Assembly: GCA_001072465.1 (NCBI GenBank)
Contig: JVKM01000047.1
Coordinates: forward strand, 1-44,965
Source of the DNA: Xylanimonas cellulosilytica
GTDB taxonomy: Bacteria > Actinomycetota > Actinomycetes > Actinomycetales > Actinomycetaceae
DNA: 44,965 nt
Direction: 5' to 3'
Positions 14,591 through 39,468 of this stretch are shown here, piece by piece. The notes below the pieces were generated by a model. It made no database searches and was not told where the DNA came from. It was given only the letters and a program-made list of their open reading frames with translations. The first letter of the stretch is position 1; each line of letters starts with the position of its first letter. A program made the position numbers and the translations under genes.

Positions 14591-14664
14591 GGGGGGGGAA
14601 TGACACCATCCAAGCCTCCGACACGCCGTTAGAGGGCTTCGCATGGCGCAAAACCTCCACCGCA
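14591..14664. repeat. Degenerate copy of the inverted-repeat element at 38565-38640
   Basis: A G-run, then 16 nt later GCCTCCGACACGCCG (identical to 38585-38599), then GCAAAACCTCCAC against GCAAAACCCCCAC. The order and partial spacing are preserved; the copy is 11 bp shorter between the last two blocks. Confidence 0.45.
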
Positions 14665-33676: not shown

Positions 33677-35931
33677 GCACGCCACGCATGACTTCCGGTG
33701 CCGGGCGAGTGCTCGGGGGGCGCTACACGCTGCTCACCCCGATCGCCCAGGGCGGCATGGGCGAGGTGTGGAAGGCCCGCGACCGCGTCAGCGGCCACAT
33801 CGTCGCCGCGAAGGTCCTGCGCCCCGAGCTGACGGGTGAGGAGCTCTCGCTCTCGCGCCTGCGCCTCGAGGCGCGTAACTCGATGTCGATCTCGCACCCG
33901 AATATCGCCAACACTCAGGATTCGGGCGAGGAAGACGGCATCGGCTGGATCATCATGGAGCTCGTCGACGGCCATCCGCTGACGGATTACCTGCGCGGCG
34001 GCTCCCGCATTGAGCCCGAGTACCTCATGCCAATCCTCGTGCAGGTCGCGATGGCGCTGGGCGCTGCCGCGCGCGCGGGCGTCGTGCACCGCGACATCAA
34101 GCCCGCGAACATTATTGTTCGCCCTGATGGCATGGTGAAACTGACGGACTTCGGCATCTCTCGTGCGAAGGGCCAGGTCAACCTGACCGCCGCGGGCATG
34201 GTCATGGGCACCGCCCAGTACCTGCCGCCCGAGCAGGCCATGGGCGAGGTCGCCACCCCCATCGGTGACCTCTACGCCCTGGGCGTCATCGCCTACGAGG
34301 CCGCGGCCGGTCGACGCCCGTTCACCGGCGAGACCCAGGTGGACATCGCCTTCGCGCACGTCAACGATCCCGTTCCGCCGCTGCCGGACTTCGTGCCCGA
34401 GCCCCTGGCCGACGTCATCTTGCACCTGCTGGAGAAGGACCCCGCGAAGCGCCCCGAGTCCGGGTCCGCAGCCGTGCGCGAAATCGCGAGCGCAGCCAAG
34501 GCGATGGGCGTCTCCGTGACCCCTCGCCCGCTGCCCCTGCCAAAGGCCGCGCAGCGCCCCGAAGAGGTGCGCACACCCGTCCAGCCGTCGGTGCCGATCG
34601 TCGCACCGGTGCGTCACCTGACGCGCCGCACGCTGCCCGACGAGATGCTGCAGCCCCCCTCGGGACTCACTCCGAAGGTTCGCGCGACGACGGGCCGGCA
34701 CGCCAAGCTGCCCGTCCTCGACGAAGCGACGACGATCGCCCCCTCCTCGACCCAGATCCCGATCACGGGTCGCCACGCCGCCGTCCCGCGTATCCTCGAC
34801 GAGGCCGAGGTTCCCCCGGTCTCTCGCCCTGTGTCCACTCCCACGCGGGTTCGTCGCCTGCACCCCGAGACGACCGGCGAGCAGCCGCCCGCGGTGTCGG
34901 GTGCCGTCCGATCGCTGACCTCGACCGGTCGCCACGCAGCCGTCCCGGCCCCCACGGCGAACCCGCCGGCACCGGTGTCAGCCCCGATCCCGACGCGATC
35001 CACACCCAAGACAGCTCCCGCGCAGACGGCTCCTGCACCCGCTGCTCCTGCACCCGCGCAGGCCGCGACCGCCCGCACGACCACGGGTTCCATCCCGAGG
35101 CACGCGACTCCCGCTCGCTCCGAACAGGTCCCGCAGCCCAGCAGCGAGACCGCCCAGCGCCCCCAGGCCTCGGCGCCCGCGCAGCGTTCCGCGCCTATCC
35201 CGGCCCCTCCGGCCGACGCAGCGCCCGCGCACACCGACGCGCCGAAGACCCCGCTGCCGTCCGAGCCGCAGGATCGACGCGCCGCCCTCGCCGAGCGACT
35301 GCGCCAGCGCGAGGCGGCCCGCCAGGCAGAAGACGCCGCCGAGGAGCAGCGCCGCGCAGCCGTCGCCCGCGAAGAAGAACAGCGCCAGCGCGAGCTTCAA
35401 GAAGCCCGCGAGCGCCGCGAAGCTCGCGAACGCCGCGAAGCTCGCGAACGCCGCGAGGCCGAAGAAGCCAAGCGTCAGGCGGCCCGTCAGGCGGCCCCAC
35501 GTATTCCTCAGCCCACCCGCTCCGAGTCGCCTCGCCGCGACAAGCCGGCCACGGCCTCGTCGCCGCGCGTGTACGGGACCGTTCCCCAGCCTCGCGCAGC
35601 CACGCCCTCGAAGCGCCAGCGACGCTCGGTCTACGAGCCGCGGCCCGAGAAGGCGAAGCGCGGGCCGCGCTGGCACGAGCTCGACGCTCGCAGCGCGCAA
35701 CGTACCCGTCCGGCGGCCAAGACCGCGTACTCGCGCAGCGTCGTCGCACCACCCGTCCCAGCATCCAGGCAGATTATTCGCGCGGTCATCGTCGCAATCG
35801 TCGTGATTGCGCTCATCGCGCTTGCAGCTATTACGATCAAACACATGCTTGGCTCCCTGATACAACCAAGTGTGGGAGCACACATTATCGAGGAGGTTAG
35901 GACATGGCAGAGCCCATGGCCCACCGTCTAG
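33673..35931 (+). CDS. pknA: Ser/Thr protein kinase PknA-like, with long disordered and coiled-coil region
   Basis: A 752-residue kinase. The catalytic domain (residues 17-285) has the glycine loop AQGGMGEVW, Lys47 (AAKVLR), the HRD motif with Asp141 (HRDIKPANI), DFG at 159-161 and an activation loop LTAAGMVMGTAQYLPPEQ. About 300 residues of Pro/Ala/Thr-rich linker follow, with a recurring TGRHA motif. A charged helix follows (repeats of ERREAR, then EEAKRQAARQAA), and one membrane helix (IIRAVIVAIVVIALIALAAI) lies 25-45 residues from the C-terminus. There is essentially no external sensor domain. It overlaps pknB by 28 nt. PknA of mycobacteria is much shorter (about 430 residues). Confidence 0.9.
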   Translation: MSTPRMTSGAGRVLGGRYTLLTPIAQGGMGEVWKARDRVSGHIVAAKVLRPELTGEELSLSRLRLEARNSMSISHPNIANTQDSGEEDGIGWIIMELVDGHPLTDYLRGGSRIEPEYLMPILVQVAMALGAAARAGVVHRDIKPANIIVRPDGMVKLTDFGISRAKGQVNLTAAGMVMGTAQYLPPEQAMGEVATPIGDLYALGVIAYEAAAGRRPFTGETQVDIAFAHVNDPVPPLPDFVPEPLADVILHLLEKDPAKRPESGSAAVREIASAAKAMGVSVTPRPLPLPKAAQRPEEVRTPVQPSVPIVAPVRHLTRRTLPDEMLQPPSGLTPKVRATTGRHAKLPVLDEATTIAPSSTQIPITGRHAAVPRILDEAEVPPVSRPVSTPTRVRRLHPETTGEQPPAVSGAVRSLTSTGRHAAVPAPTANPPAPVSAPIPTRSTPKTAPAQTAPAPAAPAPAQAATARTTTGSIPRHATPARSEQVPQPSSETAQRPQASAPAQRSAPIPAPPADAAPAHTDAPKTPLPSEPQDRRAALAERLRQREAARQAEDAAEEQRRAAVAREEEQRQRELQEARERREARERREARERREAEEAKRQAARQAAPRIPQPTRSESPRRDKPATASSPRVYGTVPQPRAATPSKRQRRSVYEPRPEKAKRGPRWHELDARSAQRTRPAAKTAYSRSVVAPPVPASRQIIRAVIVAIVVIALIALAAITIKHMLGSLIQPSVGAHIIEEVRTWQSPWPTV

Positions 35932-37922
35932 CTGGCCGATACGAGGTCCGCTCGCTCATCGGGCGAGGAGGAATGGCCGAAGTCCACCTGGGCTTCGACA
36001 CTCGCCTGTCGCGCGTCGTAGCAATCAAGATGCTGCGCCGCGATCTGGCGCAGGACTCGATCTTCCAGGCGCGCTTCCGTCGCGAAGCGCAGTCGGCGGC
36101 GTCACTGAATCACCCGAACATCGTCGCCGTGTACGACACGGGCGAGGAGATCATCGAGGATGCGACCGGCCGTTCGATCGCGGTGCCCTACATCGTCATG
36201 GAGTACGTCGAGGGGCACACGGTCAAGGACCTGATCTCCGACGGCACGGCCGTTCCGATCAACGAGGCCATCGAGATCGTGTCGGGCGTCCTGTCTGCCC
36301 TCCAGTACTCGCACGCGAACCACCTGGTGCACCGCGACATCAAGCCCGGCAACATCATGCTGACGTCGGACGGCAAGGTCAAGGTCATGGACTTTGGCAT
36401 CGCGCGAGCCCTGACGGACTCGCAGGCCACGATGACGCAGACGAACGCCGTCGTGGGCACCGCCCAGTACCTCTCCCCCGAGCAGGCTCGCGGCGAGACC
36501 GTTGATGCTCGCTCCGACCTGTACTCGACCGGTGTCGTCCTCTTCGAGCTGCTGACGGGCCGCCCGCCCTTCAAGGGTGACTCGGCCGTCGCCGTCGCCT
36601 ACCAGCACGTCGAGCAGATCCCGCCGACGCCCTCGTCGATCCTGTCCGACATCCCGGACTCGCTCGACCGCGTGGTGCTGAAGTCCCTGGCGAAGAACCG
36701 CGAGGACCGCTACCCGAGCGCAGCAGCAATGCTCGCGGACCTGCAGCGCGTGGCCCGAGGCCTCGACGTGGGCGCGCCGCCCGCCGACTCGTGGGCGACC
36801 GAGGTCCTGCCCGCCGCCGGCATGGCGTCCGCACGCACCGCCGCGACCACGCCGATGGCCGCGGTCCCCAGCCACGCGCCCGCCGCGGCGATGGCCGCGA
36901 CCTCCACGTCGCTGCCCGCGGTTACCACCGATGACACTGCGAACGAGGCCGCCAAGGCCCGCAAGCGCCGCACGGCGATCATCGCGACCGTGTTGCTCAT
37001 CGCCCTGCTGCTGATCGGCGGCTCGGTGTGGGCCCTGACGCGCGGTGCCGCCGAGCCCGAGTCGATCGCGGTTCCCAACGTCGTCGGCCTGACCCAGGCC
37101 GAGGCGAAGACTCAGATCGAGCAGGCGGGCTTCACGTGGGAGCTCAACCCCGACAAGGTCGCCTCCGATACCGTCGCTGAGGGCTCCGTGGCCTCCACCG
37201 ACCCCGCCGCGGGCACGCAGGCCGAGAAGGGCGCGACCGTTCGCGTCACCATCTCCTCCGGCCCCGACTCCGTGACCCTGCCGGACAACCTGGTCGGCAT
37301 GAGCCCCGACGACGCCCGTAAGGCGATCGAGGCCCTGGGCCTGAAGTGGGAGCTCGACTCCAGCAAGGTCGCCTCCGACACCGTTCCCGAGGGCAAGGTC
37401 GCGCAGACCAACCCCTCCCCCGGTTCCAAGGTGAAGGCCGGCCAGACGATCCGCGCCTACCTGTCCTCCGGCTCGGATCAGGTGGACGTGCCGGACCTGT
37501 CGGGCATGACCCAGGACCAGGCTCGCAGCACCCTCAAGGGCGTCGGCCTGGAGTTGGGCAACGTGACGAGCGTTGACTCCGAGAAGGAGAAGGACCGCAT
37601 CGTCGAGCAGGATCCCGCGACCGGCACGAAGGTCAAGAAGGGAACCGCCATTGGCGTGTCCATCTCGAGCGGCAAGGCCGCGCAGGTGGAGATTCCCACC
37701 GTCGTCGGCATGGGCCGTGAAGACGCCGAGGCGCAGCTCAAGGCCCTGGGCCTGACCGTCACCGTCGAAGAGGTCGCAGGCAACCAGCCCGCAGGCCAGG
37801 TCCTCTCCGTCGAGCCCGGCGAGGGTTCGAAGGTGGAGAAGAATTCGACCGTGAAGCTGAAGGTGTCGAAGGGCGGCCAGAACGGAAACAACGGCGGCAA
37901 TAACGGGAACGCCCACCACTGA
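35904..37922 (+). CDS. pknB: Ser/Thr protein kinase PknB with four PASTA domains
   Basis: A 672-residue transmembrane receptor kinase controlling wall growth and division. The catalytic domain has IGRGGMAEVHLG, Lys42 (VAIKML), Asp145 (HRDIKPGN), DFG 163-165 and the activation-loop TMTQTNAVVGTAQYLSPEQ with two candidate autophosphorylated threonines. An Ala/Thr-rich juxtamembrane region precedes the helix TAIIATVLLIALLLIGGSVWAL (about 356-377). Four PASTA repeats follow, starting near IAVPNVVGLT, VTLPDNLVGM, VDVPDLSGMT and VEIPTVVGMG. They bind muropeptides or lipid II. The tail is Asn/Gly-rich. ATG 35904 has AGGAGG 7 nt upstream, inside the end of pknA. It is the last gene of the operon. Confidence 0.97.
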   Translation: MAEPMAHRLAGRYEVRSLIGRGGMAEVHLGFDTRLSRVVAIKMLRRDLAQDSIFQARFRREAQSAASLNHPNIVAVYDTGEEIIEDATGRSIAVPYIVMEYVEGHTVKDLISDGTAVPINEAIEIVSGVLSALQYSHANHLVHRDIKPGNIMLTSDGKVKVMDFGIARALTDSQATMTQTNAVVGTAQYLSPEQARGETVDARSDLYSTGVVLFELLTGRPPFKGDSAVAVAYQHVEQIPPTPSSILSDIPDSLDRVVLKSLAKNREDRYPSAAAMLADLQRVARGLDVGAPPADSWATEVLPAAGMASARTAATTPMAAVPSHAPAAAMAATSTSLPAVTTDDTANEAAKARKRRTAIIATVLLIALLLIGGSVWALTRGAAEPESIAVPNVVGLTQAEAKTQIEQAGFTWELNPDKVASDTVAEGSVASTDPAAGTQAEKGATVRVTISSGPDSVTLPDNLVGMSPDDARKAIEALGLKWELDSSKVASDTVPEGKVAQTNPSPGSKVKAGQTIRAYLSSGSDQVDVPDLSGMTQDQARSTLKGVGLELGNVTSVDSEKEKDRIVEQDPATGTKVKKGTAIGVSISSGKAAQVEIPTVVGMGREDAEAQLKALGLTVTVEEVAGNQPAGQVLSVEPGEGSKVEKNSTVKLKVSKGGQNGNNGGNNGNAHH

Positions 37923-37978
37923 GTGAGCCCCGGGCCGCGTCGCGGTAGTACCGCTTCGTAGTTGTCCCCGTTGATCAC

Positions 37979-38022
37979 TGAGGCCCGCGCCTGCGAGGAG
38001 AAATCCTGCGGCGCGGGCCTCA
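37979..38022 (+). terminator. Terminator of the kinase operon
   Basis: TGAGGCCCGCGCC and GGCGCGGGCCTCA form a perfect 13-bp stem with an 18-nt loop, 56 nt after the pknB stop codon. Confidence 0.8.
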
Positions 38023-38033
38023 CTGTATGCGCG

Positions 38034-38093
38034 GGGGCGCGGGTGTGCGCGGGGGCGCGCGGGGGCGCGGGCACGCAGGGGCGCACGGGGGCG
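38034..38093. repeat. G-rich low-complexity repeat
   Basis: GCGGGGGCGCG-type units are repeated several times, with runs of four to five G on the plus strand. This is potential G-quadruplex sequence immediately after the kinase-operon terminator. Confidence 0.65.
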
Positions 38094-38263
38094 CGCCGGC
38101 TGCCTCGACAACGCACAGCAAGCAGGGACCGGTGCGCCCGCCTCTTCACGTTGGAAGCGCGTCCTCCACAACGCACGGCCGCCAGATAACCAGCTCTGTT
38201 GGCAGGTGCTGTGCTGCGATGCGGGCTCACAATCAGACGCGCCAGAAAGCCGGTCCTCTACGC

Positions 38264-38360
38264 GGATAGGTTATGACGATGTGGATAGGTTATCGGCATC
38301 CGGATAGGTTAATAAGCTATCCGGATGTGCGTAACCTATCCGGATGCTCGCAACCTATCC
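38264..38360. repeat. Symmetric six-site array 1 (19-bp period)
   Basis: GGATAGGTTA occurs at 38264, 38283 and 38302. Its reverse complement or a one-base variant occurs at 38313 (TAAGCTATCC), 38332 (TAACCTATCC) and 38351 (CAACCTATCC). The offsets are 0, 19, 38, 49, 68 and 87. Between sites, ATCC/GATG is partly kept and 4-5 bases vary. The array is a dyad centred on 38312. Confidence 0.9.
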
Positions 38361-38436
38361 GCATGCATGCACCCACAAGCAGATCTGCGGTACCGTAGCT
38401 GACACGCCCACCTGCAATCACAACGCGCTACACCTG

Positions 38437-38516
38437 TGAGGGAACGTTGCACCATTTAGGGAGCATTGCACCAGCTCGGAAGGGGCGTCATGTTCCCTCA
38501 GTGGTGTAACACCACT
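38437..38516. repeat. Nested inverted repeats between the two arrays
   Basis: TGAGGGAAC (38437-38445) is inverted at 38492-38500. TTGCACCA occurs twice in between. AGTGGTGT-A-ACACCACT is a 17-bp palindrome at 38500-38516. Confidence 0.7.
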
Positions 38517-38564
38517 ACGTAACAAGTACTTTCGCGGCGCCGCCATAAGAAGCTCGCATCAAAC

Positions 38565-38640
38565 GGGGGTTTTGCACGACACGAGCCTCCGACACGCCGG
38601 TGACGCATGCTCCCAGGACCCCATGTAGTGCAAAACCCCC
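38565..38640. repeat. 13-bp inverted repeat with 50-bp spacer
   Basis: GGGGGTTTTGCAC (38565-38577) and GTGCAAAACCCCC (38628-38640) are exact inverted repeats. A degenerate relative lies at 14591-14664. Confidence 0.8.
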
Positions 38641-38698
38641 ACTGCCCCCAGTTGAAGAAGCAAATGTCAGGAGACTGGGCTACGGCGCCCAGCGATCT

Positions 38699-38795
38699 GG
38701 ATAGGAAACGACGATCTAGATAGGTTACGGCGTTCCGGATAGGAAAATAACCTATCCAGAAGAGCAGTTCCTATCCAGAACAGAACGTCCTATCC
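38699..38795. repeat. Symmetric six-site array 2 (19-bp period)
   Basis: Sites are GGATAGGAAA (38699), AGATAGGTTA (38718), GGATAGGAAA (38737), then inverted TAACCTATCC (38748), GTTCCTATCC (38767) and CGTCCTATCC (38786). Offsets 0, 19, 38, 49, 68 and 87 and the total length of 97 bp are identical to array 1, though site sequences have diverged. The common core is GATAGG, preceded by YTCYG/ATCC-type bases. Confidence 0.9.
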
Positions 38796-38829
38796 AGAAC
38801 ACGCATCCATACGCGATAGGCCGCGCAAC

Positions 38830-39468
38830 CTACAGCCTGAAACGCTCCGCGACAACGGGCTTCAGGGACACGGCCCGCTCACGTGCGTCGGCGTCGCCGC
38901 AGGCTGCCAGCCAGTTGGCGAACATGAGGTGCCCGGACTGGGTCATGACGGACTCGGGGTGGAACTGGACGCCCTCGAGGGGCAGGGAGCGGTGGCGCAC
39001 GCCCATGATGATGCCGGACTCGGTGGTCGCGGAGACCTCGAGCTCGTCGGGCATGGTTGCGGGGTCGATCGTCAGCGAGTGGTAGCGGGTGACGGTCAGT
39101 GGTGAGGGCACGCCCTCGAAGACGCCGCGCCCGTCGTGCGTGATGACGGAGGTCTTGCCGTGCATGAGCTCGGGTGCGTGCCCGACGGTCGCGCCGAAAA
39201 GCTCACCGAGGGACTGGTGCCCCAGGCACACGCCCAGCATCGGGATGCCATGCTCGGCGCAGTCGGCGATGGTCTGTAGGGAGGCGCCGGCGCTCTTGGG
39301 GTCGCCGGGTCCGGGGGAGATGAGGACGCCGTCGTAGCCGGCCTCGAACCAGGCGGGATCCACGACGTCGTTACGCACGACGTCCACGGTCGCACCCAGG
39401 TGGCGCAGGTAGCCCACGATCGTGAAGACGAACGAGTCGTAGTTGTCGACGCAGAGGATTCGTGCCAT
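38830..39468 (-). CDS. pabA: Class I glutamine amidotransferase, PabA/TrpG type
   Basis: A 212-residue cytoplasmic glutaminase subunit that supplies ammonia for aminodeoxychorismate (folate) or anthranilate (tryptophan) synthesis. The N-terminus ARILCVDNYDSFVFTIVGYL is typical. The oxyanion loop is ISPGPGDP, the nucleophile is Cys81 (LGVCLGHQ), and His170 and Glu172 (GVQFHPESV) complete the triad. In Actinobacteria this gene commonly sits next to pknB, where it is annotated trpG or pabA; the sequence does not decide which synthase it serves. ATG 39468 has AAAGGA upstream; the frame extends further but without support. An ACGAGGCCGGG hairpin separates it from the sortase operon. Confidence 0.9.
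   Translation of the reverse strand: MARILCVDNYDSFVFTIVGYLRHLGATVDVVRNDVVDPAWFEAGYDGVLISPGPGDPKSAGASLQTIADCAEHGIPMLGVCLGHQSLGELFGATVGHAPELMHGKTSVITHDGRGVFEGVPSPLTVTRYHSLTIDPATMPDELEVSATTESGIIMGVRHRSLPLEGVQFHPESVMTQSGHLMFANWLAACGDADARERAVSLKPVVAERFRL

Follow-up and report, generated by a model that had tools for sequence, protein, structure and literature searches.

What are the two arrays of short sites, identical in geometry, that occupy a single gap between two genes in an actinomycete chromosome, and what might recognize them? The arrays lie in a 44,965-nucleotide stretch of DNA, here called the window (contig JVKM01000047.1 of assembly GCA_001072465.1, deposited as Xylanimonas cellulosilytica), between genes that we take to be pknB, encoding a PASTA-type serine/threonine kinase, and a PabA-type glutamine amidotransferase gene, names carried over from the preliminary description (Table 1; G, C, and L numbers denote genomes, contigs, and loci, and the genome of the window is G000). 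Both arrays are exactly 97 bp long and carry GGATAGG cores at offsets 0, 19, and 38 on the plus strand and 52, 71, and 90 on the minus strand; these are the same positions as the offsets 0/19/38/49/68/87 previously given for 10-bp sites, and both arrays are thus real. The earlier wording of three direct and three inverted GGATAGG-type sites also stands, although it was too uniform in detail: read on its own strand, the fourth site of array 1 is GGATAGC, the second site of array 2 is AGATAGG, and in array 2 the bases following GGATAGG vary beyond (T/A)(T/A)A. The centre of array 1 is short (GGATAGGTTAATAAGCTATCC). With up to two mismatches, the two-unit pattern GGATAGG-N12-GGATAGG occurs eight times in the window, every time within these arrays, compared with a mean of 0.13 in 100 shuffles, which bears out the view that they did not arise by chance; the GGATAGG spacing, whose absence from other genomes had been named as evidence against a functional site, is present elsewhere.

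Table 1. Coordinates of the features discussed, as positions in the window unless a contig or locus is given.
Feature	Position	Strand	Remarks
Left neighbour, PASTA-type serine/threonine kinase (pknB)	35904..37922	+	
Array 1, family A	38264..38360	.	3 direct + 3 inverted GGATAGG units, 19-bp period
Family B element	38440..38515	.	GCATTGCACC-like units at 19-bp spacing, about 2+2, asymmetric CGGAAG centre; nhmmer E 1.4e-4
Family C element	38565..38643	.	GGGGGTTTTGCAC / GTGCAAAACCCCC arms around CGACACGCC centre; nhmmer E 0.0015
Array 2, family A	38699..38795	.	3+3 units, mostly TCTGGATAGG/GGATAGGAA variant
Right neighbour, PabA-type glutamine amidotransferase	38833..39468	-	convergent with pknB
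Second, shortened family C element	14593..14659	+	nhmmer E 5.1e-8
Type A nuclease gene of G000	G000:C63:5514-6611 (L050:5514-6611)		outside the window

An inverted arrangement between convergent genes might simply act at the RNA level, as a hairpin that, once transcribed, terminates or protects the transcripts of both neighbours, and array 1 does fold well relative to controls (z = -11.1 on the plus strand and -10.9 on the minus strand), as does array 2 (z = -7.5). Such folding is, however, expected of any inverted array, and the hairpin leaves both the tandem units and the linked gene described below unexplained, making this reading highly improbable. No intrinsic terminator (a GC-rich stem followed by a T run) was detected in 37850-38900, and an Rfam search of 37900-38900 returned six weak matches, all far below gathering scores; we rejected a terminator or known RNA on these scans. 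A selected hairpin was rejected as well: in 39 arrays of 3+3 units, pairing between the spacers of opposite arms is no better than after shuffling, so the folded strand seems not to be what is kept. The middle five spacer bases of these arrays pair less than shuffled, a figure to which we attach no weight, since ancestry determines the arm types and the arrays were not oriented alike.

The arrays are dispersed and abundant in one clade. G000, a member of the Schaalia odontolytica clade, carries 14 GGATAGG arrays on nine contigs, the two in the window included, and in G034, a near-closed genome for which positions were listed in full, they are spread along the chromosome/contig. GGATAGG unit pairs, which like those of the other words below were counted completely over whole genomes (array places, for some genomes, are those among the matches listed), number 68–207 in 10 of 35 same-genus genomes and 0–2 in the other same-genus genomes; across all 58 genomes searched, our own included, the 48 outside the array-rich ten have 0 to 2. 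These ten are also the genomes with the most similar PabA (at least 91%, versus at most 83% for the rest), and the named records at the pknB–pabA place belong to Schaalia odontolytica and relatives; a transposon library is available for the S. odontolytica laboratory strain XH001 (PMC12369343). One record named Sanguibacter keddieii 250_SKED (NZ_JVOJ01000031.1) has arrays as in G012 and a PabA 97% identical to that of S. odontolytica; its name is probably wrong. The clade yielded 84 distinct arrays or fragments, of which 40 were scored as 3+3 and the others range from 2+2 to 3+9; the 76 with both arms share one centre spacing in 66 cases and one polarity in 74. Their units follow a consensus close to ATCCGGATAGGTTA, in which conservation of the core is favoured by the use of that core to locate the arrays. 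At orthologous arrays (four genomes at each of two arrays, picked by hand), variable columns make up 1 of 84 in the cores and 16 of 110 in the spacers.

A word-blind scan of the loci showed that the same geometry is written elsewhere with other words. At the pknB–pabA place of G015 stands an array of TCAAGGC units with a 19-bp period, and TCAAGGC pairs number 109 in that genome, compared to 0–4 in 57 others; the G015 arrays mostly have 3-5 + 3-5 units and a single centre spacing. Comparing the array flanks of the G000 clade with those of G015 led to a reading frame shared beside the arrays, whose product in G034, G010, and G015 is 62%, 89%, and 34% identical, respectively, to that of G000. The C-terminal part of this protein resembles Vsr-type PD-(D/E)XK nuclease domains (MTES_1575/DUF559), weakly so in G000, where it falls below the Pfam cut-offs for both families; the G015 protein exceeds the DUF559 cut-off (22.4 vs 20.6 bits), and 27 and 30 of 36 homologs match the two models at E 0.1 or better. 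Five residues—E221, D252, E263, D265, and K269—are invariant across all 36, the acidic ones suggesting a working nuclease. For the N-terminus, weak Pfam matches in 2 of the 36 give no more than a hint of an AbiEi-like DNA-binding domain.

Homologs of the nuclease occur in 33 of 35 same-genus genomes, a single genome having as many as six, and in at least 22 of 297 genomes of the order (four of them from our own genus) at E 1e-25 or better, the latter count being a lower bound since at most six candidates were scored per genome. Repeat abundance follows the cognate enzyme: nine of the ten array-rich genomes encode a homolog of the top group (type A, at least 483 bits), found once per genome, and the G015 and G016 words are abundant only in their own genomes. 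The exception, G023, is missing the type A gene, and its place holds one 2+3 array; here the gene has been lost and the array kept, and arrays can thus outlive their gene. In the loci compared (G000 and G034), type A genes occupy the same chromosomal place, which suggests vertical descent with no recent movement of the gene unit. At four loci examined closely, an array lies ~110–260 bp upstream of the likely start codon, a position suggesting that the nuclease may control its own expression.

A nuclease of this kind could also belong to a defence or addiction system, being restriction-like or toxic, with genomic arrays that mark self or restrain the enzyme. Consistent with this, the proteins bear a weak resemblance to AbiEi (one of six with PADLOC models, alongside the Pfam matches above), and the work that defined MTES_1575 as a Vsr-type REase dealt with proteins of conflict and defence (PMC3710099). 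PADLOC nevertheless yielded no credible defence model, with weak matches only in two of six proteins; no partner gene was noticed beside the nuclease in the loci examined; and G023 lives without the type A nuclease while retaining its arrays. We therefore consider a defence role very unlikely.

Beyond the clade and G015, the most telling case was an unplanned one. Among 800 kb from eight other genomes, the word-blind scan found seven clusters, of which only one, in G016, was array-like, and this cluster lies at the 5' end of a nuclease homolog with a second array downstream of it. The word written there, CGTCGGTAGG, forms 17 pairs in G016, a single pair in each of two further genomes, and none in another 32; a word read beside the gene predicted a dispersed family. 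In G015, one TCAAGGC array stands just upstream of the 34% identical homolog, on one side only. A distant homolog in G007 has a palindromic array on either side, spaced at 33 and 43 bp, and outside the genus, G265 has CGAAGTAGA arrays with 19-bp spacing on both sides of its homolog and G196 a weaker GCCGASTTC word beside its own. In S. georgiae, an array of a third word, with a 20-bp period, lies roughly 2.4 kb away from pabA. At two ribosomal protein genes (L043/L252 and L047/L257), presumably rplL and rplI, arrays of differing words appear to stand at matching ends in the clade and in G015. Palindromic matches in two Bifidobacterium loci (L134:1500-1700 and L146:3040-3240) consist of mirrored TTATCCAC sites; we take these look-alikes to be DnaA boxes of replication origins, which they resemble, and rejected them as an array family.

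The spacings of the different families (19-20, 31-33, 41-43, and 52 bp) cluster near whole helical turns. In a test of helical phase based on 21 family periods entered by hand, some from weak detections, the eight distinct values alone gave p of about 0.005 at 10.5 bp per turn, with a pitch of 11 fitting slightly better. Because cores are conserved while spacers drift, the phase is fixed, and spacings approach whole turns, these features point to a protein that would bind the units cooperatively along double-stranded DNA, and a protein-binding array, as first proposed, is the most likely nature of the units on this sequence pattern. Binding to one DNA face is in keeping with the near-whole-turn spacings of several families, although 19 bp falls slightly short of two turns.

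How tightly are arrays and nuclease genes paired? With the same detector and setting throughout and Fisher tests for comparison, GGATAGG arrays flank the type A gene on both sides in nine of nine genomes, which are close relatives and not independent cases. Other same-genus homologs have an array on at least one side in 10 of 39 cases at the strict setting (four on both sides) and 15 of 39 at the relaxed one, a count that omits L290 and L291, which are parts of the same interrupted gene, and the order-search loci L328–L331. For homologs of other genera, the corresponding figures are 3 of 22 (none on both sides) and 8 of 22, versus 0 and 3 of 247 intergenic control windows, with two windows taken per gene and one per control. 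Homologs with no detected array thus number 29 of 39 and 19 of 22 at the strict setting and 24 and 14 at the relaxed one. As most distant homologs are among them, either the detector misses many arrays or the pairing is not universal; requiring at least two similar units per arm, it is blind to family C and misses diverged family B elements. We regard the pairing as well supported and are highly confident that nuclease and array are cognate partners. The idea that the arrays might be the end structure of a non-coding mobile element accordingly comes close, since the same arrays flank a nuclease-type gene.

The pairing also accounts for what lies between the two arrays of the window. Models of families B and C were built from elements beside two further nuclease paralogs and searched with nhmmer. 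The family B element of the gap matches elements beside one paralog (G034 L295, G000 L290/L291), and the family C element those flanking a third (G000:C60, G034, G023). Counterparts in G020 score better (B, 4.6e-9; C, 7.4e-5); the counterpart at the same place in G034 matches C (6.3e-8) with no B match, and that of G031 matches C at 2.2e-13. In 800 kb of control DNA, the family C model had no matches and the family B model only two (E 0.12 and 0.52). With B and C matches lying between arrays 1 and 2, the pknB–pabA gap thus contains four elements of three nuclease-linked families, which explains an intergenic region that otherwise looks like a jumble of repeats. Several families coexist in one genome. 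The family B nuclease gene of G000 is found in two halves, L290 (C20) and L291 (C27), both over 1.2 kb away from the contig ends, as though an insertion had split the gene. Following pknB, window positions 38029-38099 form a GC-rich, low-complexity stretch of GCGCGGGGGCG units, and the G034 gap also holds a 512-residue reading frame (L058:3053-4591) that is missing at that place in G000.

Within the clade, the arrays also change in step with the nuclease. The nucleases of G000, G012, G010, and G011 form one group and those of G034, G028, and G020 another, with 59–62% identity between groups; the G031 and G025 proteins are 69–72% identical to the first. In the units flanking the gene, T precedes GGATAGG in 92–100% of cases in G034, G028, and G020 and in 0–41% in six others. 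The dispersed arrays shift in part with the nuclease subtype, the fraction with T being 0.52 in G034, 0.48 in G020, and 1.00 in G028 (10 units) versus 0.09–0.34 in five others. The G000 nuclease is 95% identical to that of G012, although at mscL the DNA of G000 shares 95% identity with G028, G034, and G020 and 88% with G012; this discordance suggests that the nuclease gene was replaced in the G000 lineage. (The tal gene, 96–97% identical to G012, G028, G034, and G020 alike, does not separate them.) Array 2 is perhaps a legacy of the other nuclease subtype.

These correspondences bear on the simplest alternative, that the arrays are miniature elements of the ordinary kind, mobilized by some unrelated transposase, and that the nuclease gene travels along as a passenger. 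Short dispersed units without genes, and other insertions in the same gaps, would suit such elements, but a passenger explains neither the differing words beside homologs in several lineages nor the subtype match nor the G016 prediction, and the RAYT-type (Y1) transposase is absent: a search for Y1 (IS200/IS605-type, RAYT) transposase (PF01797) was negative in all 35 same-genus genomes, with the control search positive in 5 of 14 named genomes. We find this alternative extremely improbable. A phage or plasmid origin was likewise rejected. No protein match was found in plasmid or phage collections; in viral contigs, five stretches matched the peptide pattern, none encoding a relative, and two GGATAGG triples were simple repeats.

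Where the arrays sit is open to two interpretations. They could be the sites of a domesticated DNA-binding system, in which a chromosome-organising or transcription-blocking factor uses arrays kept at gene ends as insulators or stops, with no self-copying. Three places, the pknB–pabA gap and the two ribosomal gene ends, are apparently common to the clade and G015 though the word differs, and cores are kept after speciation. Moreover, gaps with arrays in G000 and G034 (n = 25) comprise 12 convergent, 12 codirectional, and one divergent, compared with 60, 143, and 55 among 258 sampled gaps of eight other genomes (convergent excess, p 0.014; divergent deficit, p 0.036), orientations having been assigned by a crude ORF caller. 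The bias fits an insulator and a tolerated, promoter-avoiding parasite alike, and in G015, where simple gene calling performed poorly and left eight gaps unclassified, just 2 of 12 classified gaps are convergent. Occupancy is also patchy: arrays are present in 9 of 10 clade genomes at pknB–pabA (one or two arrays), 9 of 10 at tal, and 4 of 10 at mscL (one of the four shortened), and occupied places differ from species to species. We hold the domesticated reading to be unlikely. Since arrays stand at many other places and not in every clade genome at this one, a regulatory switch specific to pknB/pabA, another early suggestion, is not supported either. Nor did anything point to a partition site, also proposed early on. 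A search for a clean empty site at two places found none, and the mscL junction is sharp on the left and followed on the right by further diverged DNA. In G012, the third unit of the mscL array (L343, end ~2252) gives way to unrelated DNA, which looks like the insertion of another element into the array. A dispersed element of ~120 bp with CTCGCACGTAATT... / ...AATTATGTGCGAG ends and a GTTGCAATTCCAACG centre adjoins arrays, at L338 ~2420-2540 (G000, mscL gap), L342 (G023), and L290 (~2100-2230), and is possibly a further family.

We think it probable that the arrays make up a nuclease-cognate repeat family, being at once its recognition or target sites and its scattered, non-autonomous copies. 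Nuclease subunits would occupy every 19-bp unit, arranged head to tail on both arms, and come together at the near-palindromic centre, where the complex might nick or cut; repair from another array could then copy arrays to new places, add or remove units, and keep the word uniform within a genome, while an array upstream of the nuclease gene would let the protein regulate its own expression. That the nuclease spreads or homogenises arrays seems to us slightly favoured on balance, by patchy occupancy and by analogy with RAYT-REP (PMC2817692). More broadly, we give even weight, for and against, to the existence of a class of Vsr-type nucleases in the Actinomycetales, each with its own word, that copy and homogenise helically phased palindromic arrays, with several families per genome and rapid joint change of protein specificity and word—an independent counterpart of REPIN-RAYT built on an unrelated enzyme.

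Among known systems, DUF559 (PF04480) and MTES_1575 REase (PF18741) proteins share the C-terminal domain matches and conserved acidic residues, whereas here the protein is linked to a repeat element, and no such element was found described with these families in the literature searched. AbiEi transcriptional regulators bind inverted repeats cooperatively, and they share with our proteins the weak N-terminal match noted above; unlike in AbiEi systems, an AbiEii partner was not noticed and the arrays occur throughout the genome. Iteron arrays and Tn7-type end sites are ordered sites at about 19–22 bp spacing, found at single replication origins or element ends; the spacing and order are alike, but the arrays here are many, dispersed, and palindromic. 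A full-text literature search, with most subscription papers and preprints outside its scope, found no published description of the array–nuclease pairing, and the evidence points to an undescribed repeat-plus-enzyme system in bacteria. With such a system, one group of DUF559/MTES_1575-like proteins, so far of unknown function, would gain a role, and the question of how short repeats maintain themselves and spread through the compact genomes of bacteria would have a second answer. With many homologs whose word is written alongside them, it also supplies natural protein–DNA specificity pairs from which a recognition code is directly testable, and which might yield new site-specific DNA-binding or nicking proteins.

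The closest parallel is the REP/BIME/REPIN family of repeats and its RAYT enzyme. In the account of Nunvar (2010, PMC2817692), the RAYT gene has a copy of its own palindromic repeat on either side, many copies lacking any gene lie between genes, words co-diverge with the protein, more than one family can inhabit a genome, and different families are mixed in one gap. All of these have counterparts here, from arrays on both sides of the type A gene to gene-free copies, co-divergence, and several families per genome and per gap. There are also differences: the enzyme is Vsr/MTES_1575/DUF559-like, a mirrored multi-unit array at fixed spacing replaces a single hairpin of 20–40 bp, arrays number tens per genome and not hundreds, and the GTAG-type head is absent from the array unit consensus. 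Membership in REP/RAYT was rejected, as the defining Y1 enzyme is absent; the array–nuclease system works like REPIN-RAYT without belonging to it.
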